Positions 10,353 to 17,298 of a stretch of 37,820 nt of DNA are shown here, one piece after another. The notes under the pieces are model-generated. The model made no database searches, had not been told where the DNA came from, and was given only the letters and a program-made list of their open reading frames with translations. The translations under genes were made by a program, and so were the position numbers. The stretch lies in assembly GCA_030530285.1 (NCBI GenBank), contig JAUMVD010000017.1:1-37820 (forward strand), in the 5' to 3' direction. Each line of letters starts with the position of its first letter. Positions within the stretch are counted from its first letter, which is position 1. The DNA comes from Bacillota bacterium (GTDB lineage Bacteria > Bacillota > Clostridia > Peptostreptococcales > Anaerovoracaceae).

Positions 10353-11936
10353 TTAGTCCAGTGCTTCTTTCTTGGCGACGGATACCTTCTCGTCGTAGCA
10401 GGCGAATACCTTGTTGACTTCCTGTATCGGCTGTCTTCTGGTCACCAGACTCACCGCCGGCACCAGGATGAGGCCGCCCACCATGGCGATCACGCCTGAT
10501 CTGACGGATGAAGCGAAGATGTAGCTCAGGAATGTTCCCCAGCCTGAGATGTCGATGCCGCCCAGGGAAATGATCATCTGAATGATCATGAGTCCGCAGC
10601 CCCAGATGAAGCAGGCGAATACCGAAGCCTTGGATATGCGCTTCCAGTACAGGCCGTAAATATATGGAGCCAGGAATGCTCCCGCCAGCGCGCCCCAGGA
10701 TACGCCCATCATCTGCGCGATGAAGGTGATCTCAGGATGGCTGTCCTTGATGATGGCGATCACCGCTGAAACGAAGATAAAGAACAGGATGAAGATCCTC
10801 ATGACGATGACCTTTTTCTTCTCGCTCATGGTCCCGCCGCTGGCCGGATCGATGACGTCCAGGGTGAAGGTGGAACTGGATGTGAGCACCAGGGATGACA
10901 GCGTGGACATGGATGCCGAAAGCACCAGCACGATGACGATAGCGATGACCAGTGCCGGAAGCGTAGCCAGCATGGACGGCACGATGGTGTCGAACAGCGG
11001 AGTAACGCCGTCGCTCTGATATGCGATCTTGTCCGCGTACAGCCTGCCGAAGCCGCCGAGGAAGTAACATCCTCCCGCCACGATGATGGCGAATACCGTC
11101 GATATGATCGTTCCCTTGTGGATATCGTTCTCACTCTTGATGGCATAGAACTTTCCTACCATCTGCGGCAGTCCCCAGGTTCCCAGAGAGGTCAGCAGCA
11201 CGACGAACAGCAGTGCCAGAGGATCCGGTCCCAGGAATGATGAGAACGCGCCTCCGCTCCAGCCCTCTGTGGAAACTTCCGAAAGCTTTTGGGTGGCGGC
11301 TACCAGTCCGCCGTTGGCGTGGAGAACTGCGCCGATTACCGCGCAGATTCCAAACAGCATGATGATGCCCTGGATGAAATCGTTGATGGCCGTGGCCATG
11401 TATCCGCCGAATACAACGTAGAATCCGGTCAGTACGGCCATGACGGCGATGACGACCCAGTAAGGGATGTCGAATACCAGTCCAAACAGACTGGACAGGC
11501 CGTTATAAAGTGATGAAGTATACGGGATCAGGAAGATGAAGATGATGATCGACGCGATGACCTTCATGGACTGGGATTCGAACCTCTTGCCAAAGAAATC
11601 CGGCATGGTCTTGGCGTCCAGATGCTGCGTCATGATCCTGGTTCTCCTGCCCAGAATGTTCCACGCCATGAGGGATCCGATGAAGGCGTTCCCCAGACCG
11701 GCCCATGTGGAGGCCAGACCGAAATTCCATCCGAACTGCCCCGCGTACCCGACAAAGATTACCGCGGAGAAATACGACGTTCCGAATGCAAAAGCTGTCA
11801 TCCACGGTCCGACTGACCTGCCGCCCAAAACGAACCCTTCTACGTTGCGCGCCCTGCTTCTGGTGTGCAGGCCTACGGCGACCATGACTGCGAAGAAGAT
11901 TATCAGCATGATCGCGCTGATCACTTTAACTACCAT
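10353..11936 (-). CDS. Sodium:solute symporter (SSS family), probably for tyrosine
   Basis: The 527-aa protein has about 13 hydrophobic spans and SSS-family features such as FVLGGRSVGPWMTAFAFGTSYFS near the N-terminus, the GGYMATAINDFIQG segment, and LVLSASMSTLSSLVLTSSS in the sodium-site helix. These proteins carry solutes such as proline, pantothenate or sugars with Na+. The substrate cannot be read from the protein, but the gene sits behind a T-box whose specifier codon is UAC, so tyrosine or a precursor is the best inference. GGGAGG lies 8 nt before the ATG. The stop is 2 nt from the uvrB SOS box. Confidence 0.9.
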   Translation of the reverse strand: MVVKVISAIMLIIFFAVMVAVGLHTRSRARNVEGFVLGGRSVGPWMTAFAFGTSYFSAVIFVGYAGQFGWNFGLASTWAGLGNAFIGSLMAWNILGRRTRIMTQHLDAKTMPDFFGKRFESQSMKVIASIIIFIFLIPYTSSLYNGLSSLFGLVFDIPYWVVIAVMAVLTGFYVVFGGYMATAINDFIQGIIMLFGICAVIGAVLHANGGLVAATQKLSEVSTEGWSGGAFSSFLGPDPLALLFVVLLTSLGTWGLPQMVGKFYAIKSENDIHKGTIISTVFAIIVAGGCYFLGGFGRLYADKIAYQSDGVTPLFDTIVPSMLATLPALVIAIVIVLVLSASMSTLSSLVLTSSSTFTLDVIDPASGGTMSEKKKVIVMRIFILFFIFVSAVIAIIKDSHPEITFIAQMMGVSWGALAGAFLAPYIYGLYWKRISKASVFACFIWGCGLMIIQMIISLGGIDISGWGTFLSYIFASSVRSGVIAMVGGLILVPAVSLVTRRQPIQEVNKVFACYDEKVSVAKKEALD

Positions 11937-12264
11937 TGATTATTCCTCCCTATAACAAATAAATTCGCCCTCAATACAGAGGGCGAATGAGCATTCGCGG
12001 TACCACCTCAGTTCACTACCGCGTCACCACGGCAGCCTTTACGGGTACGTCCCTGGGGGATTATACCCTCGTGCTGTAACGGGCACTTCCCGTCACGCCC
12101 TACTCACCGCGGCGCAGACGCCTTAGTTTTCAGGGTGCAGCTCCGGGACGTATTCGCTATCAGTAACTACGCGCCTCTCACCAAACGGCAACTCTCTGTT
12201 CAGTCTCCTGAAAGTTACTCTTTCCCTTCACAGCCTTTTTGTTGGTATTCAACTAATTATTACG
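11937..12264 (-). promoter_or_regulatory. T-box riboswitch leader, specifier UAC (Tyr)
   Basis: This 5' leader fills the gap between sbcC and the symporter. On the minus strand it has the stem I features AGTA, CAGAGAG and GGTGAGAGG, then the specifier loop GCGAATACG closed by a GGGA/TCCC helix. The specifier is TAC (12152-12150) followed by a purine (G), as the T-box rule requires. The T-box motif AACTGAGGTGGTACCGCG is at 12013-11996, and a terminator follows. Uncharged tRNA-Tyr would stabilise the antiterminator and switch the transporter on. The ileS leader in this window has its specifier at the same place relative to its closing helix, which supports the reading. Confidence 0.92.
11963..11988 (-). 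terminator. T-box terminator before the symporter
   Basis: A perfect 10-bp stem (11963-11972 with 11979-11988) with a 6-nt loop, followed on the minus strand by TTTATTTGTT. Its 5' side immediately follows the T-box motif, as expected for mutually exclusive folds. Confidence 0.9.
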
Positions 12265-12299: not shown

Positions 12300-15028
12300 G
12301 AACTTTTTTCTGTTATTATTTTCACGCTGCTTCCGCGGGTCTTATCCTTGGTCACCACCACCTGTCTGCTGATTTTTTCCTTTAACTCAGCAACGTGGGA
12401 AATGATGCCCACGAGCCTGTCGCTTTCGGCCACCCGGCTCAGGGCGCGCATGGCCTGGGACAGGGTATCCTCATCCAAAGAGCCGAATCCCTCGTCCACA
12501 AACATGGTGTCCAGTTTGATGCCTCCGGAGGAAGCCTGGATCTCATCGGACAGTCCCAGCGCCAGCGACAGCGACGCCATGAAGGACTCCCCTCCGGAAA
12601 GCGTCTCCACGCTTCTCTCGCTGCCGTTATAGTGGTCGATGATGTTCAGGTCCAGGCCTGTCTTGGATTTTTTGTTGGCGGTTTCCCGTCTTCTCTTGAA
12701 TTCATACTGACCGTCGCTCATGATCCTAAAGCGCAGATTGGCCTTGCTCAGGATCCGGTCAAAATACGCCATCTGGACGTAGGTTTCCAGGGTGATCTTT
12801 TCTTTCCCGCTCAGGGTTCCATTGGCAGTATCCGACAGGGTGCTGATGGTCCGGTAGCTGCGTTCCGCCTCCTTCATGCGCCCCTGCAGCGATGCGATGT
12901 TCTGTTCGGCTTTGGCATTGATCTCGATTCTGGTGCGCAGCTTTTGCTGTCTGGAAAGGGCCTCCGCTTTATCTGCCGCAGCCGTTTCCAGCCTGGCCTT
13001 CTCGGCCTTGATATCGATGTCATTGCCCCGGCTTATAATGTCTTCCAGTTCCTTTTTCCTGCCGGCGAGGCTGCTCTGAAGGCGGACCTTGCTGTCGTAA
13101 TGCTTCCTGGCGTCTTCATGGGATTTCTCCAGGGCGTCGTCCTCGTCCTTCAGGTTTCGGATGGCGCGCTCCAGGCTCTTCAGGTCGCCATGGGTGAGTT
13201 TCGCCTTCTTTTCTTCGGCCTTTTGCTTCAGAGAATCCAGTTTTTCCTTCCAGACGGCCAGCTGCCTGGCGGATTCCGTGACGATCCTGTCGGCCTCTTC
13301 ATGGTTCTTCTTGTGTTCCGTTAAAGAGGCTTCCTGCTCGGCCAGACGTTTCATATCCGCCCTGGCTTCCGCCAGTTCCTTTTCTTTGACGGCGATTTCT
13401 TCCTTTACCTTAACGCTCTGTTCGCGAACGATCTCGGCTGTGATATCACCTTCGAACAGCTTGGCGGCCTCCCGCTTCAGGTTGTCAGCGGCGGTCTGCC
13501 GCTTTCCTTCCAGCTCTCCTGCCGCGGCGCTCTTTTGCTGCTGGAGCGAATTGGCCTGTTCCATTTCCCGGCCTTTGCTCTTGAGCTGACTCTCAGAAGG
13601 CGCCCCGTCTTTTACGACGGCCAGCTGAGGGTGCTCTGTCGCCCCGCATACAGGGCAAGGCGCGCCGTCATCCAGATTCTCTGCCAGGATTCCCGCCTGG
13701 GCGTCCAGGAAAGCTCGGTTTATGGCGGTGTGTTCCGCCGCGATTTGATCGTATGCCTTTCTGGCTTCCAGATATGCTTCTCTGGCCTTCTCGCAGTCCT
13801 TTTCCAGGGCTTCACACTCCGCCAGAGCTGCGGATATCTCGTCGATATGGGCTGCTTTCTGCCTCAGCAGCTTCAGTGCCCCTTCCCGCTCTGCCGCTTT
13901 GATTCCGGCGTCTTTCAGCGTGGCGATGGTTTGCTCGATTTCCGCTATTTCCGAAAGGCATTTCGTTTTTTCTTTGTTGGCCTTTTCGATTTTGTGTTCT
14001 GTTTCCGCCAGCGCCGTATCCGCAGCCTTGAGATCGCCTTTGATGGTTTCCAGTTCCTCGTAGGCCGGCCGCTGGGCCTTCAACTCCGTGATGAGGGCGG
14101 TGATTTCCTTTCGTCTCGGTGCCTTTTGCTCTTCGGTTTTCAGGCGCTGCTCGGCGGAGCTGACGTCCTGCGCCGCCTTGACGGAATCCTCGTTGATGGT
14201 TTTGAGGGATTCTCTGGCTGCCTCAAATTCCTCCGCCCTGCCGATGCGCTTCTGCAGTTTGCCGATTTTCTCATCGAATCCGGAGATTGTTTTTTCCAGA
14301 GTTTTGTCTTCCTCTCTATCATCCTGTAATCGGTCTCTGATCAAGTTGATGACATAGGAGATATTTTCGTTTCCGGCCTCTTCGGGGATCGCGTCCTGAA
14401 TGTATCCGGCTACGGAAGTCTTCACCTGCTCATACTCCTTCTGGGCTGCGCTCTTTTCCTCCAGCAGGCTGGACTGGATGCGCTCGAATATATTGGTCCC
14501 GAAAAGTTTCCGGAAGATTTTCATGCGCTCGTCGGTTCCCGCGGTGAGCAGCTTCATGAAGTCGCCCTGCGAGATCATGGCGATCTGCGCGAACTGATCC
14601 CGGTCGATGCCCAGCAGTTCTTTGACTGCGTTGTCCACTTCAGCCGTCTTCGTCAGGGGCTGCCTGCCCGGCGCGTAAAACTCCGCCTTAGCCGGACTGT
14701 TGGTGGTTCCCTCGCCTACCTTCTTCGCCCGTTCCTGATCCGGTTTCCTCATGACGGTGTATTCCCGGCCTTTGTGCTCAAAGGTCAGCTTGACTTCCGT
14801 CTCAACCGTCGGATCGGCGTATTTGGATCTAAGAGATTTAGGGGATCTCACCTTGCCGCTGGCCTGACCGTACAGCGCGAAGGTGATGGCGTCAAAAATA
14901 CTGGTTTTGCCCGCTCCGGTGACGCCGGTAATAAGGTACAGACCGTGCTCTCCCAGTTCATCCAGAGACAGCCGGACATTCCCTGCATATGGGCCAAAGG
15001 CCGTCATTTCCAGTTTCAAAGGTCTCAT
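12296..15028 (-). CDS. sbcC: SbcC exonuclease ATPase subunit (Rad50-like)
   Basis: The 910-aa SMC-like ATPase partners SbcD to cut hairpins and process DNA ends. Walker A GVTGAGKT is at 35-42, long charged coiled-coil arms flank a zinc hook CPVC at 458-461, and the signature LSGGES is at 810-815 with Walker B MFVDEGFGSLD downstream. It starts with ATG 4 nt inside the end of sbcD (ATGA overlap), the usual coupled sbcDC order. It is somewhat short for the family but has all parts. Confidence 0.95.
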   Translation of the reverse strand: MRPLKLEMTAFGPYAGNVRLSLDELGEHGLYLITGVTGAGKTSIFDAITFALYGQASGKVRSPKSLRSKYADPTVETEVKLTFEHKGREYTVMRKPDQERAKKVGEGTTNSPAKAEFYAPGRQPLTKTAEVDNAVKELLGIDRDQFAQIAMISQGDFMKLLTAGTDERMKIFRKLFGTNIFERIQSSLLEEKSAAQKEYEQVKTSVAGYIQDAIPEEAGNENISYVINLIRDRLQDDREEDKTLEKTISGFDEKIGKLQKRIGRAEEFEAARESLKTINEDSVKAAQDVSSAEQRLKTEEQKAPRRKEITALITELKAQRPAYEELETIKGDLKAADTALAETEHKIEKANKEKTKCLSEIAEIEQTIATLKDAGIKAAEREGALKLLRQKAAHIDEISAALAECEALEKDCEKAREAYLEARKAYDQIAAEHTAINRAFLDAQAGILAENLDDGAPCPVCGATEHPQLAVVKDGAPSESQLKSKGREMEQANSLQQQKSAAAGELEGKRQTAADNLKREAAKLFEGDITAEIVREQSVKVKEEIAVKEKELAEARADMKRLAEQEASLTEHKKNHEEADRIVTESARQLAVWKEKLDSLKQKAEEKKAKLTHGDLKSLERAIRNLKDEDDALEKSHEDARKHYDSKVRLQSSLAGRKKELEDIISRGNDIDIKAEKARLETAAADKAEALSRQQKLRTRIEINAKAEQNIASLQGRMKEAERSYRTISTLSDTANGTLSGKEKITLETYVQMAYFDRILSKANLRFRIMSDGQYEFKRRRETANKKSKTGLDLNIIDHYNGSERSVETLSGGESFMASLSLALGLSDEIQASSGGIKLDTMFVDEGFGSLDEDTLSQAMRALSRVAESDRLVGIISHVAELKEKISRQVVVTKDKTRGSSVKIITEKSS

Positions 15029-16176
15029 GCCATCTCCTCCTTTATCGTCTCGATGATCCTGCCGGCGATCTGCCGCTGCGCCTCGCTCATGGATGCGTTA
15101 TTCTGTTTCTCGAACAGCTCCTCAAACAGTTCCAGTTCCGACCGCTGCTTGAGCTCCGCCGCGTCCATAACGTCTGTTTCCGTCCGGGTCCGTTTATTGT
15201 CGTATCTTAAATTCATCAAATTCGGGTAAGATGACCTAAGCCTTGTGATCGCGTCCGGTATATCGTCCTCGTCCAGCAATGTCACTCTGACATACGCTTC
15301 CGTATCCACGGTTTTCAGGAACTCTTCCGACGTCACTTCTTCAAACGTCCCCCGGATATCCGCCCAGTCCCGCATCGGCTTCAGCCGGATTTCCCTGATG
15401 GTAAGATCGCACTTGCCGTCGGCCTTTGCTCCCAGCTCCGCTATGGTGACGGATTTCTGATGATGCACCTCCGAGAAGGAATACTTCAGCGGGGTCCCGC
15501 AGTATCGGATATTGTTGTTTGGTCCCAGGCTCTGTGGTGCGTGAAGATGCCCCAGAGCAGTATAATCAAAGGCTTCAAACACATCGGCGTCGATGTTGTC
15601 CAGTCCTCCGATCATCATGTCTTCTGACTCGCATCGGTCAGCCCCGGTCACAAACTGGTGCGCCACCAGGACATTTCTGGCGTCGGGATTGACCTCCATT
15701 TTATCGATGGCGGCGGCCATGGCCTTTGCATAAGTGTCGATGTCATCATCCTTCAGGGCGTGCCTCACCACCGCGGGTTTGATGAACGGCATCAGGTACA
15801 GATTCACCTGGCCGTATTCATCCGTCAGCGTGTATTTCGGTGCCTCGCCGCTATATGCCGGCGCGATGTGAACGCCGCTGTCCTCCATCAGCGTCCTGCC
15901 AAAGGCCAGACGCTCGGCCGAGTCGTGGTTGCCGCTGGCGATATAGATCTGATTGCCTTTGTCCGCCAGATGACAGAGAAACGCCTCCAGCAGCTCTATG
16001 GCTTCAATGGACGGCACGCTCCTGTCGTAAACGTCTCCGGCGATCAGGATCGCGTCGGGCGCTTCGCGTTCTGCGATGTCTTCTATCTTTTGTAATATAA
16101 ATTTCTGATCGTCGATCATGCTGAAGTCATTGATTTTTTTTCCCAGATGCAGATCTGAAATATGCAAAAGCTTCAT
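15025..16176 (-). CDS. sbcD: SbcD exonuclease nuclease subunit (Mre11-like)
   Basis: The Mn-dependent nuclease of SbcCD, with phosphoesterase motifs HISDLHLG, AGDVYD, SGNHD, AHQF and GHLHAPQ in order. I place the start at the ATG at 16176 (383 aa), because GAGAGG lies 7 nt upstream and the protein then begins MKLLHISDLHLG. A GTG three codons earlier (16185) abuts the same purine run and is too close to it. It overlaps sbcC by 4 nt. The upstream region holds an extended -10 promoter and, further out, the 47-nt repeats. Confidence 0.96.
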   Translation of the reverse strand: MKLLHISDLHLGKKINDFSMIDDQKFILQKIEDIAEREAPDAILIAGDVYDRSVPSIEAIELLEAFLCHLADKGNQIYIASGNHDSAERLAFGRTLMEDSGVHIAPAYSGEAPKYTLTDEYGQVNLYLMPFIKPAVVRHALKDDDIDTYAKAMAAAIDKMEVNPDARNVLVAHQFVTGADRCESEDMMIGGLDNIDADVFEAFDYTALGHLHAPQSLGPNNNIRYCGTPLKYSFSEVHHQKSVTIAELGAKADGKCDLTIREIRLKPMRDWADIRGTFEEVTSEEFLKTVDTEAYVRVTLLDEDDIPDAITRLRSSYPNLMNLRYDNKRTRTETDVMDAAELKQRSELELFEELFEKQNNASMSEAQRQIAGRIIETIKEEMA

Positions 16177-16207
16177 ATGCTTCACCTCTCTATCGCTTTA
16201 TGGTTCT

Positions 16208-16216: not shown

Positions 16217-16268
16217 TCCGCCGACGGGCTTTGCATTTGTTTCTGTGATTTGAATTTTTTTGTGATTT

Positions 16269-16315
16269 GCGGCTAAGTAGCCGACAATCGTTGAAATTAA
16301 CAGGCGCTTAGCCGC
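16269..16315. repeat. 47-nt three-block repeat, copy A
   Basis: It starts GCGGCTAA, has CAATCGTTGA at repeat positions 17-26, and ends TTAGCCGC. The outer blocks are perfect 8-bp inverted repeats. Sequences between the blocks differ from the other copies, but the spacing is the same. An extra short palindrome CGGCTAAGTAGCCG lies at its left end. Confidence 0.85.
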
Positions 16316-16363
16316 GCGCTTTGCCTCATATAGGGAAGATTTTCTTGTGTTTTCCTCCCATCC

Positions 16364-16410
16364 GCGGCTAAACTAGCCTCAAACCGTTGATCTTAAATAT
16401 GTTTAGCTGC
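16364..16410. repeat. 47-nt three-block repeat, copy B
   Basis: Same length and orientation as copy A: GCGGCTAA at the left, a central CAAACCGTTGA (one base longer, starting at repeat position 17), and TTAGCTGC at the right with one change from TTAGCCGC. Confidence 0.8.
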
Positions 16411-16437
16411 CAGCGTCTTCTGAACAGGGGACAAAGC

Positions 16438-16484
16438 GCGGCTAACGCGGCTCTACTTTCAACGGTTGTGAATGATTTAGCCGC
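16438..16484. repeat. 47-nt three-block repeat, copy C (reverse orientation)
   Basis: Its reverse complement starts GCGGCTAA, has CAACCGTTGA at positions 17-26 and ends TTAGCCGC. The stop codon of the nuclease gene (16479-16477) is the TAA of the GCGGCTAA block. Copies A and C share more flank: both are preceded by TGATTT and followed by GCTTTG. Confidence 0.85.
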
Positions 16485-17271
16485 AAATCAGCTCTAAAAC
16501 AATCCTTTTGATGCCTTCATAGTCCAACTGATTGTCAGGCCCTTCCTCTGTGACAATATAATTGTGGCTTTGAAAGATTCCGTTCATATTGTAGTCGACA
16601 CATTTCTGAACATTGCGCTGAACATAATCCACATTGCTCATCATTCCCTTGTGCTCCCAGTATATGGTGCTGCCGTCAGAAAGGATGATCGTAAAATCAG
16701 GGTAATAATGCTTCTGTACCCATTCTCCATTTCTCAGAACATGAAGCGTCAGCTGTCTCTCATAATAGAACTCAATCCCAAGGCTGTAGAGCAGTTCTGC
16801 TATGATCATCTCACTTTTAGTCCTGACATATAGCCCGAAGCTTGTTTGAATATTCAGTTGATCTCTTTTGTAGGGATTCTCGGATTGCACGATCTTTTTA
16901 TCCGCCTTGCCTTCAGGTTTGAATTTGGCATTGGGCCGATATGCTTTGTGGATCCGTGCCATCACTGCATCTTCAGTATCAGGAAGCAATTCGTCCAGTA
17001 ATTTTTGCTTTACTTCAATATTGTTTCGGATCACTTCAGACATGGCCTGTGCAAAGCGCTTAACCTGGAGCCTCCATATTTTAGCATTCGGCTGTTCTTG
17101 TAACGGGTGCTCTTTCTCATCGTCCGGTCCCTTGTAATAGTAATACGCTTTCTTCCGCCTGTGGTCCCATTTGCGGTTGATTCTGCCGGTTGCAGAAGAC
17201 ATTGCGGCCTTCTTGTACCGCTGCAGCCTTCGTTTATCAATCTCTATGCTTTTCTTTAAATACTCTATCAT
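16477..17271 (-). CDS. PD-(D/E)XK-type nuclease, unknown target
   Basis: A 264-aa protein with a basic N-terminal half (residues 1-50 rich in Lys, Arg and Tyr) and a C-terminal PD-(D/E)XK fold candidate: conserved-looking TKSE (E154), YYERQL (E171), YPD (D192) and EHK (E206, K208), the spacing expected for a catalytic D...ExK core. I know no specific function. I start it at 17271, since AAGGGG is 5 nt upstream and the earlier ATG at 17298 would lie before the predicted transcription start. Its last codons and stop lie in repeat copy C. It is visibly richer in A+T than sbcDC and the citrate synthase gene, which hints at separate origin. No methylase or defence gene is next to it. Confidence 0.7.
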   Translation of the reverse strand: MIEYLKKSIEIDKRRLQRYKKAAMSSATGRINRKWDHRRKKAYYYYKGPDDEKEHPLQEQPNAKIWRLQVKRFAQAMSEVIRNNIEVKQKLLDELLPDTEDAVMARIHKAYRPNAKFKPEGKADKKIVQSENPYKRDQLNIQTSFGLYVRTKSEMIIAELLYSLGIEFYYERQLTLHVLRNGEWVQKHYYPDFTIILSDGSTIYWEHKGMMSNVDYVQRNVQKCVDYNMNGIFQSHNYIVTEEGPDNQLDYEGIKRIVLELICG

Positions 17272-17298
17272 ATCTACCCCTTTGGCTGGTTTTTCCAT

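Follow-up and report, generated by a model that had tools for sequence, protein, structure and literature searches.

Helically phased palindromic arrays lie beside genes for a predicted PD-(D/E)XK nuclease-like protein in a gut-bacterial genus

The locus and its three modules

The window, meaning the whole 37,820-nt stretch of DNA that was analysed, is contig C61 of a 2.06-Mb genome in 84 contigs (G000), and it carries a cluster of three modules between sbcD and a gene for a predicted nuclease-like protein, orf273 (Table 1). An earlier note on this DNA had described three elements of exactly 47 nt, the third of them inverted, and both the lengths and the orientation are borne out. The same note proposed three shared blocks, of which the end arms stand, being perfect in modules A and C (GCGGCTAA/TTAGCCGC) and carrying a single mismatch in B (TTAGCTGC), but the middle block is looser than claimed: it is exact in A (CAATCGTTGA) and C (CAACCGTTGA) and shifted by one base in B (CAAACCGTTGA). 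On the minus strand the trio reads as a single unit of the layout M1(+) - 27 nt - M2(-) - 48 nt - M3(-). Beyond M3 lies a short T-rich stretch, and as a T- or A-rich outer flank is present in several array copies, this flank is probably part of the mobile unit. A CRISPR array, already dismissed in the note, can be rejected, since identical direct repeats are absent, only the arms are constant and the modules change strand. The window contains no further copy of the cluster, likewise as noted. What the earlier note missed is the key partner of the array, the adjacent gene orf273, whose stop codon is supplied by the outer arm of module C, so that the array begins inside the stop codon. Elsewhere in the window a T-box leader precedes a gene for a sodium:solute symporter.

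Table 1 Positions of the array, its parts and the other features discussed, in window coordinates
Feature	Position	Strand	Remarks
T-box leader	11976-12240	-	Rfam RF00230, 103 bits; upstream of sodium:solute symporter gene (10353-11936)
sbcD	15025-16185	-	Downstream neighbour of the array; also neighbour in G031
T7 run and 7 nt beyond M3	16255-16268		Outer flank
Module A (M3)	16269-16315	+	47 nt, perfect arms
Linker	16316-16363		48 nt, sequence free, length phased
Module B (M2)	16364-16410	+	47 nt, one arm mismatch
Linker	16411-16437		27 nt, sequence free, length phased
Module C (M1)	16438-16484	-	47 nt, perfect arms; outer arm contains the orf273 TAA stop codon (16477-16479)
orf273	16477-17298	-	Predicted PD-(D/E)XK nuclease-like protein of 273 aa, proposed to be the cognate of the array

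A gene family with gene-specific arrays

No family in Pfam or NCBIfam fits the orf273 protein. In its AlphaFold (AF2) model (pLDDT 92), residues ~143-273 form a predicted PD-(D/E)XK nuclease-like domain, for which the closest structures are the homing endonuclease I-Bth0305I (Z 9.3, 91 residues, 2.5 Å), TnsA (8.8) and Vsr (7.7); the Z values are moderate, but the three proteins belong to one superfamily and occupy the top of the list. D201, E215 and G218 do not vary among 39 homologues, and E163 and H216 hardly do. With this core fold and these conserved acidic residues the C-terminus fits the PD-(D/E)XK superfamily, which is characterised by metal-dependent DNA cleavage. The N-terminal 130 residues are modelled as long helices and a beta-hairpin (pLDDT 94) and matched coiled-coil-like structures only and no DNA-binding fold, which has to be counted against the proposed two-part system of gene and array.

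An even sample of the phylum, 118 other genomes, yielded no full-length member of the family; the two matches obtained there comprise the nuclease domain only, inside larger proteins. A related domain terminates large helicase-like proteins, including the PADLOC candidate PDC-S68, and plasmid AAA-type proteins. The match to the 1,221-position PDC-S68 model covers residues 135-270 of orf273 and model positions 1085-1218 (E 9e-27), yet membership in PDC-S68 would require a large multi-domain protein of ~1,200 aa, of which orf273 shares one domain only, and the assignment was rejected. Nuclease domains of the orf273 type were also seen within AAA-family/helicase proteins on plasmids of several phyla and on unannotated gut phage contigs.

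Within the genus, matches to the orf273 family occur in 43 of 49 genomes, often in several copies. The flanks of 50 family genes, which are the better tblastn matches and not a random sample, and which include some near-identical pairs, were scanned with a detector blind to arm sequence that looks for 8-nt inverted arms with no more than one mismatch and requires two or more modules whose arms are alike. Arrays of palindromic modules that share gene-specific arms are present within 700 nt, on either side, of 27 of these genes, as against none of 98 windows around other genes and none of 100 shuffled flanks; an earlier and stricter scan likewise gave none in 260 shuffles. The 23 genes at which the detector found no array count against the two-part system, as does G010, a congener that has several arrays yet just a weak orf273 match (the MAG is 79% complete). 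Since 13 of the 30 flank arrays lie downstream of the gene, they are not promoter operators of orf273. In one genome (G026 C32, L155), near-identical arrays in direct orientation stand on both sides of a single orf273-family gene (1108-1275 and 2196-2363), an arrangement resembling a composite element.

The arrays consist of two to six palindromic modules of ~36-53 nt each, and their arms differ among paralogues of the same genome, being GCGGCTAA, ACCCCACT and TTTGGAAA in G000 and TCTTATAC, GCATCGAA, AGTTGTTA, AATAACAT and TTACAGTC in G072. Arm similarity tracks protein identity weakly (Spearman 0.19, Mantel p 0.01), and no reliance is placed on this trend. In the congener G031, an orf273 orthologue with 64% identity has an array at the corresponding place, ~69 nt past the stop codon and also upstream of sbcD. 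The differing distance between array and gene at first suggested that arrays had inserted separately beside sbcD in G000 and in G031, an idea dropped because inheritance of the gene with its own array offers a better explanation. The gene and its array very probably constitute a functional pair.

Dispersal, constraint and helical phasing

The earlier note had called for a search of the whole genome and of related genomes, and both searches returned further copies. The arm pattern yields six perfect modules in the 2.06-Mb genome and none for a reversed control pattern, and with three mismatches allowed clusters appear at C25, C61 (the window), C65 and C83 only, which gives four three-module GCGGCTAA arrays in G000 and rules out a one-off local duplication. 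Every cluster follows a common plan, in which two outer modules on opposite strands enclose a middle module, sometimes degenerate, from which each is separated by a linker; the unit of the window type recurs elsewhere with other linker lengths. G010 has four such arrays and one solo module, G031 has four arrays and the rumen MAG RUG12788 also carries them, and in G000 as well as in these three genomes some of the arrays are dispersed and geneless. According to a sequence-only module model applied to 49 genomes of the genus, convincing arrays are confined to G000, G010 and G031 (the carrier genomes are MAGs, 79-92% complete), and among 394 sampled genomes of the order, a sample without G010 and G031, the exact pattern was found in none except G000. 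The remaining matches among 84,980 species, including other phyla, are isolated and look like chance; one (L044) is a CRISPR-like tandem repeat array that by chance contains GCGGCTAA, and the sole IMG/VR match (L030) is isolated within unrelated sequence. Two arrays tested for a viral or plasmid origin had no match in phages or plasmids.

Three individual loci may be mentioned here. In G010, a hybrid module of 45 nt that stands alone but has the outer flanks of a complete array (L024, C207, 2052-2096) is probably the result of a collapse via recombination between outer modules. In G011, a solo module with different arms, TGACTAAGAATCGCTGAAAGCATTGGAATTCGATTTAGTTTAGTCA, at ~1495-1545 (L079) precedes a short spacer and an A7 run, an arrangement shared with the window family. 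The terminator-like hairpin behind a tRNA gene in G025 (L080, ~1501) includes CCTTGAAATTTCAACGG, and its similarity to the module core is probably fortuitous.

A second family in G000, with other arms, again has one array at its gene and several geneless ones. Its CCCCACT arms define eight dispersed arrays with 15 exact modules, and the array length is 185-186 nt in the seven in which both outer modules are exact. One of these arrays, at C18, lies 22 nt past an orf273 paralogue of its own, and the copy at C83 adjoins the last ~23 codons of an orf273-type gene.

The genes neighbouring the arrays vary between copies and between genomes, and some arrays sit between convergent genes. In the relative G032, whose GpmI is 90% identical, addA and gpmI occur in the same order with the array absent; the intergenic region measures 87 bp there and 336 bp in G000, a 249-bp difference that corresponds to the 216-bp array and its flanks. 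The compact state of this single array-free site and the patchy distribution of the arrays favour insertion in G000. No target-site duplication is common to the array copies. A 36-nt direct repeat is found at the array in G000 C83 only, and it belongs to a local repeat (L011) in which a sequence of 30-36 nt (..ACTATACGKCAGTTTCGGCCCATTGTCTAAC) occurs three times in 0.8 kb (440-475, 720-755 and ~1179-1211). These repeats surround the GCGGCTAA array and a truncated orf273 remnant, and longer stretches in between also look duplicated.

Comparison of copies indicates which parts of the array are under constraint. Between C61 and C25 within G000, the arms are 96% identical, the spacers 31% and the linkers 27%, which is near random, while the linker lengths are the same (27 and 48 nt); among the G010 arrays the arms are 100% and the linkers 50-64% identical. 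Neutral decay would wear down arms and linkers equally, and hence the arms and the spacing have been kept. Of the two readings favoured by the earlier note, a recognition site as distinct from plain duplication is thereby supported, with arms and spacing retained, the remainder drifting and the spacings following whole turns of B-DNA. The other, a structured RNA, was rejected: no compensatory change affects the pairing of the 8-bp arms across 35 modules, which speaks for a DNA site rather than an RNA stem, no Rfam covariance model matches the array and the period is that of B-DNA. Folding as RNA, which the note had also proposed, gave modest structures for the modules and strong ones for whole arrays, but the latter arise because the modules are inverted copies of one another.

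The module centres of the window are 7.05 and 9.05 helical turns apart, and other array copies have distances of 7.0, 9.1, 10.05 and 11.14 turns, or ~15 overall where the middle module is lost. Over 72 spacings in 30 arrays, called by a detector that carries no built-in phase, the distances cluster at multiples of 10.5 bp (R=0.78, Rayleigh p ~1e-19, best period 10.55). As arrays probably grow by duplication, the phasing was re-tested conservatively, and it persists when repeated values are collapsed to one (n=25, p 6e-6; Monte Carlo, period left free, p 2e-4) and when every array outside the window family contributes a single gap (n=27, p 3e-7). The re-tests leave out the downstream group of L144, which resembles a false positive arising in GC-rich coding DNA; the array calls L094 and L161 are weak. 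A helical ladder of this kind is expected where proteins sit along one face of double-stranded DNA. Long, regular arrays occur in G065, one upstream of the gene (L145) with six modules at a 73-bp period and one downstream of the gene (L146) with five modules at 52/52/73/52 bp.

Interpretation and comparison with known systems

The cluster in the window is probably the gene-adjacent array of a two-part system composed of a nuclease-like protein and cognate phased palindromic arrays, and it is likely that the pairing of gene and array serves to spread the array. The association of gene and array, the gene-specific arms, the phasing, the constraint and the dispersal are direct observations, whereas we infer that the orf273 protein would bind, cut and move the arrays, for which a possible course of events can be outlined. 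A dimer or oligomer of the protein may bind the paired, gene-specific inverted arms, and the phasing would stack the bound modules along one face of the DNA into a nucleoprotein complex. The nuclease domain could then cut or nick, after which the array, and not the gene, would be copied in trans to new intergenic sites; the gene-adjacent array would represent the home copy and the others its non-autonomous offspring. More tentatively, the pairs may make up a new class of selfish DNA, in which PD-(D/E)XK proteins, acting without an HUH, DDE or site-specific recombinase enzyme, would use gene-specific arms to recognise helically phased palindromic arrays and copy these in trans, with protein and arms co-diversifying into several non-crossing pairs per genome.

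The main rival explanation is that the system is useful to the host, in that orf273 proteins would act as nucleoprotein or regulatory factors, possibly with no nuclease activity, and selection at each locus would maintain the arrays as their operators or as sites that organise the chromosome. In its favour, arms and spacing are retained despite near-random interiors, phasing is typical of looping regulators, and several arrays lie just upstream of promoters, for instance those of sbcD and gpmI. However, the inconstant neighbour genes, the arrays between convergent genes, the patchy distribution within the genus, the absence of the array at addA-gpmI in G032 and the invariant acidic catalytic residues of orf273 all speak against it, and this explanation appears unlikely.

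A role in defence, where orf273 would be a single-gene anti-phage nuclease and the arrays self-marks, decoys or activators controlling it, could draw on the match to the C-terminus of PDC-S68 and on the several diverse paralogues per genome, but the homology is restricted to one domain of a far larger protein, dispersed geneless arrays would have no obvious role and the two arrays tested resemble no phage or plasmid, so that defence seems improbable. The arrays also resemble classical MITEs in being short, intergenic and non-coding, with terminal inverted repeats and an array-free site in a relative, and they might be common MITEs whose parent DDE or recombinase element escaped detection, with orf273 just a frequent neighbour or hitch-hiker. 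That account is very improbable, as, over many genes, each orf273 gene has arms of its own in the array beside it, neither Y1 transposases nor serine recombinases were found in the carriers, the copies have no target-site duplication in common and no long element bounded by such ends came to light. The paired system of nuclease-like protein and phased arrays remains the preferred reading.

Among described systems, the closest in logic is the REPtron, which combines REP/REPIN repeats with the Y1 transposase TnpA_REP/RAYT (PMC3116915, PMC8266576, PMC3733652) and which also comprises a chromosomal enzyme gene flanked by its own gene-specific palindromic repeats, geneless dispersed copies and repeats in opposite orientation. 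In contrast, the protein here has a predicted PD-(D/E)XK fold, and no match to the Y1 (HUH) transposase PF01797 was found in the carriers searched (G000, G010 and G031, MAGs 79-92% complete); the modules are 36-53 nt with long variable interiors, the flanks of 13 arrays contain neither GTAG nor another constant tetranucleotide tag, the phasing points to double-stranded DNA, and there are 4-8 copies per genome, not hundreds. Membership in the REP/RAYT group was therefore rejected for want of a Y1 transposase and a tag in the carriers. The res site of the Tn3 family likewise has three inverted-arm subsites, acted upon by a serine resolvase, whose distances must equal whole helical turns (PMC12217951), but res subsites are 25-34 bp in a site of ~120 bp, whereas the present modules are larger and number two to six per array, many arrays departing from three; as no serine recombinase (PF00239) matched in G000, G010 or G031, this assignment was rejected as well. 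The BOX and RUP elements of pneumococcus are short interspersed modular repeats of Bacillota, some arranged A-B-C, that make target-site duplications and have ends resembling known IS (PMC3049150), but the BOX modules are different sequences and no partner gene accompanies each family as it does here. With the EDxHD/Vsr-type homing endonuclease I-Bth0305I and with TnsA the likeness is in the predicted nuclease-domain fold only: the N-terminal domain of orf273 is different, the gene is not in an intron or a Tn7 operon, and identity over the aligned part is 8-21%.

On the best reading, orf273 and its arrays thus fit none of the REPtron, Tn3 res or BOX systems, and no description of such a gene-array system was found in the open-access literature. 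If the reading is true, it would give a function to an unnamed family that has no Pfam or NCBIfam match and occurs in several copies in most genomes of this gut-bacterial genus. With so many natural pairs whose arms differ, protein-DNA specificity and its co-evolution can be tested directly, and the helical ladder provides biochemistry with a strong and simple prediction. An arrangement of an enzyme with dispersed palindromes would then have evolved independently of the REPtrons, on the nuclease fold of TnsA and the homing enzymes and not on that of HUH transposases.
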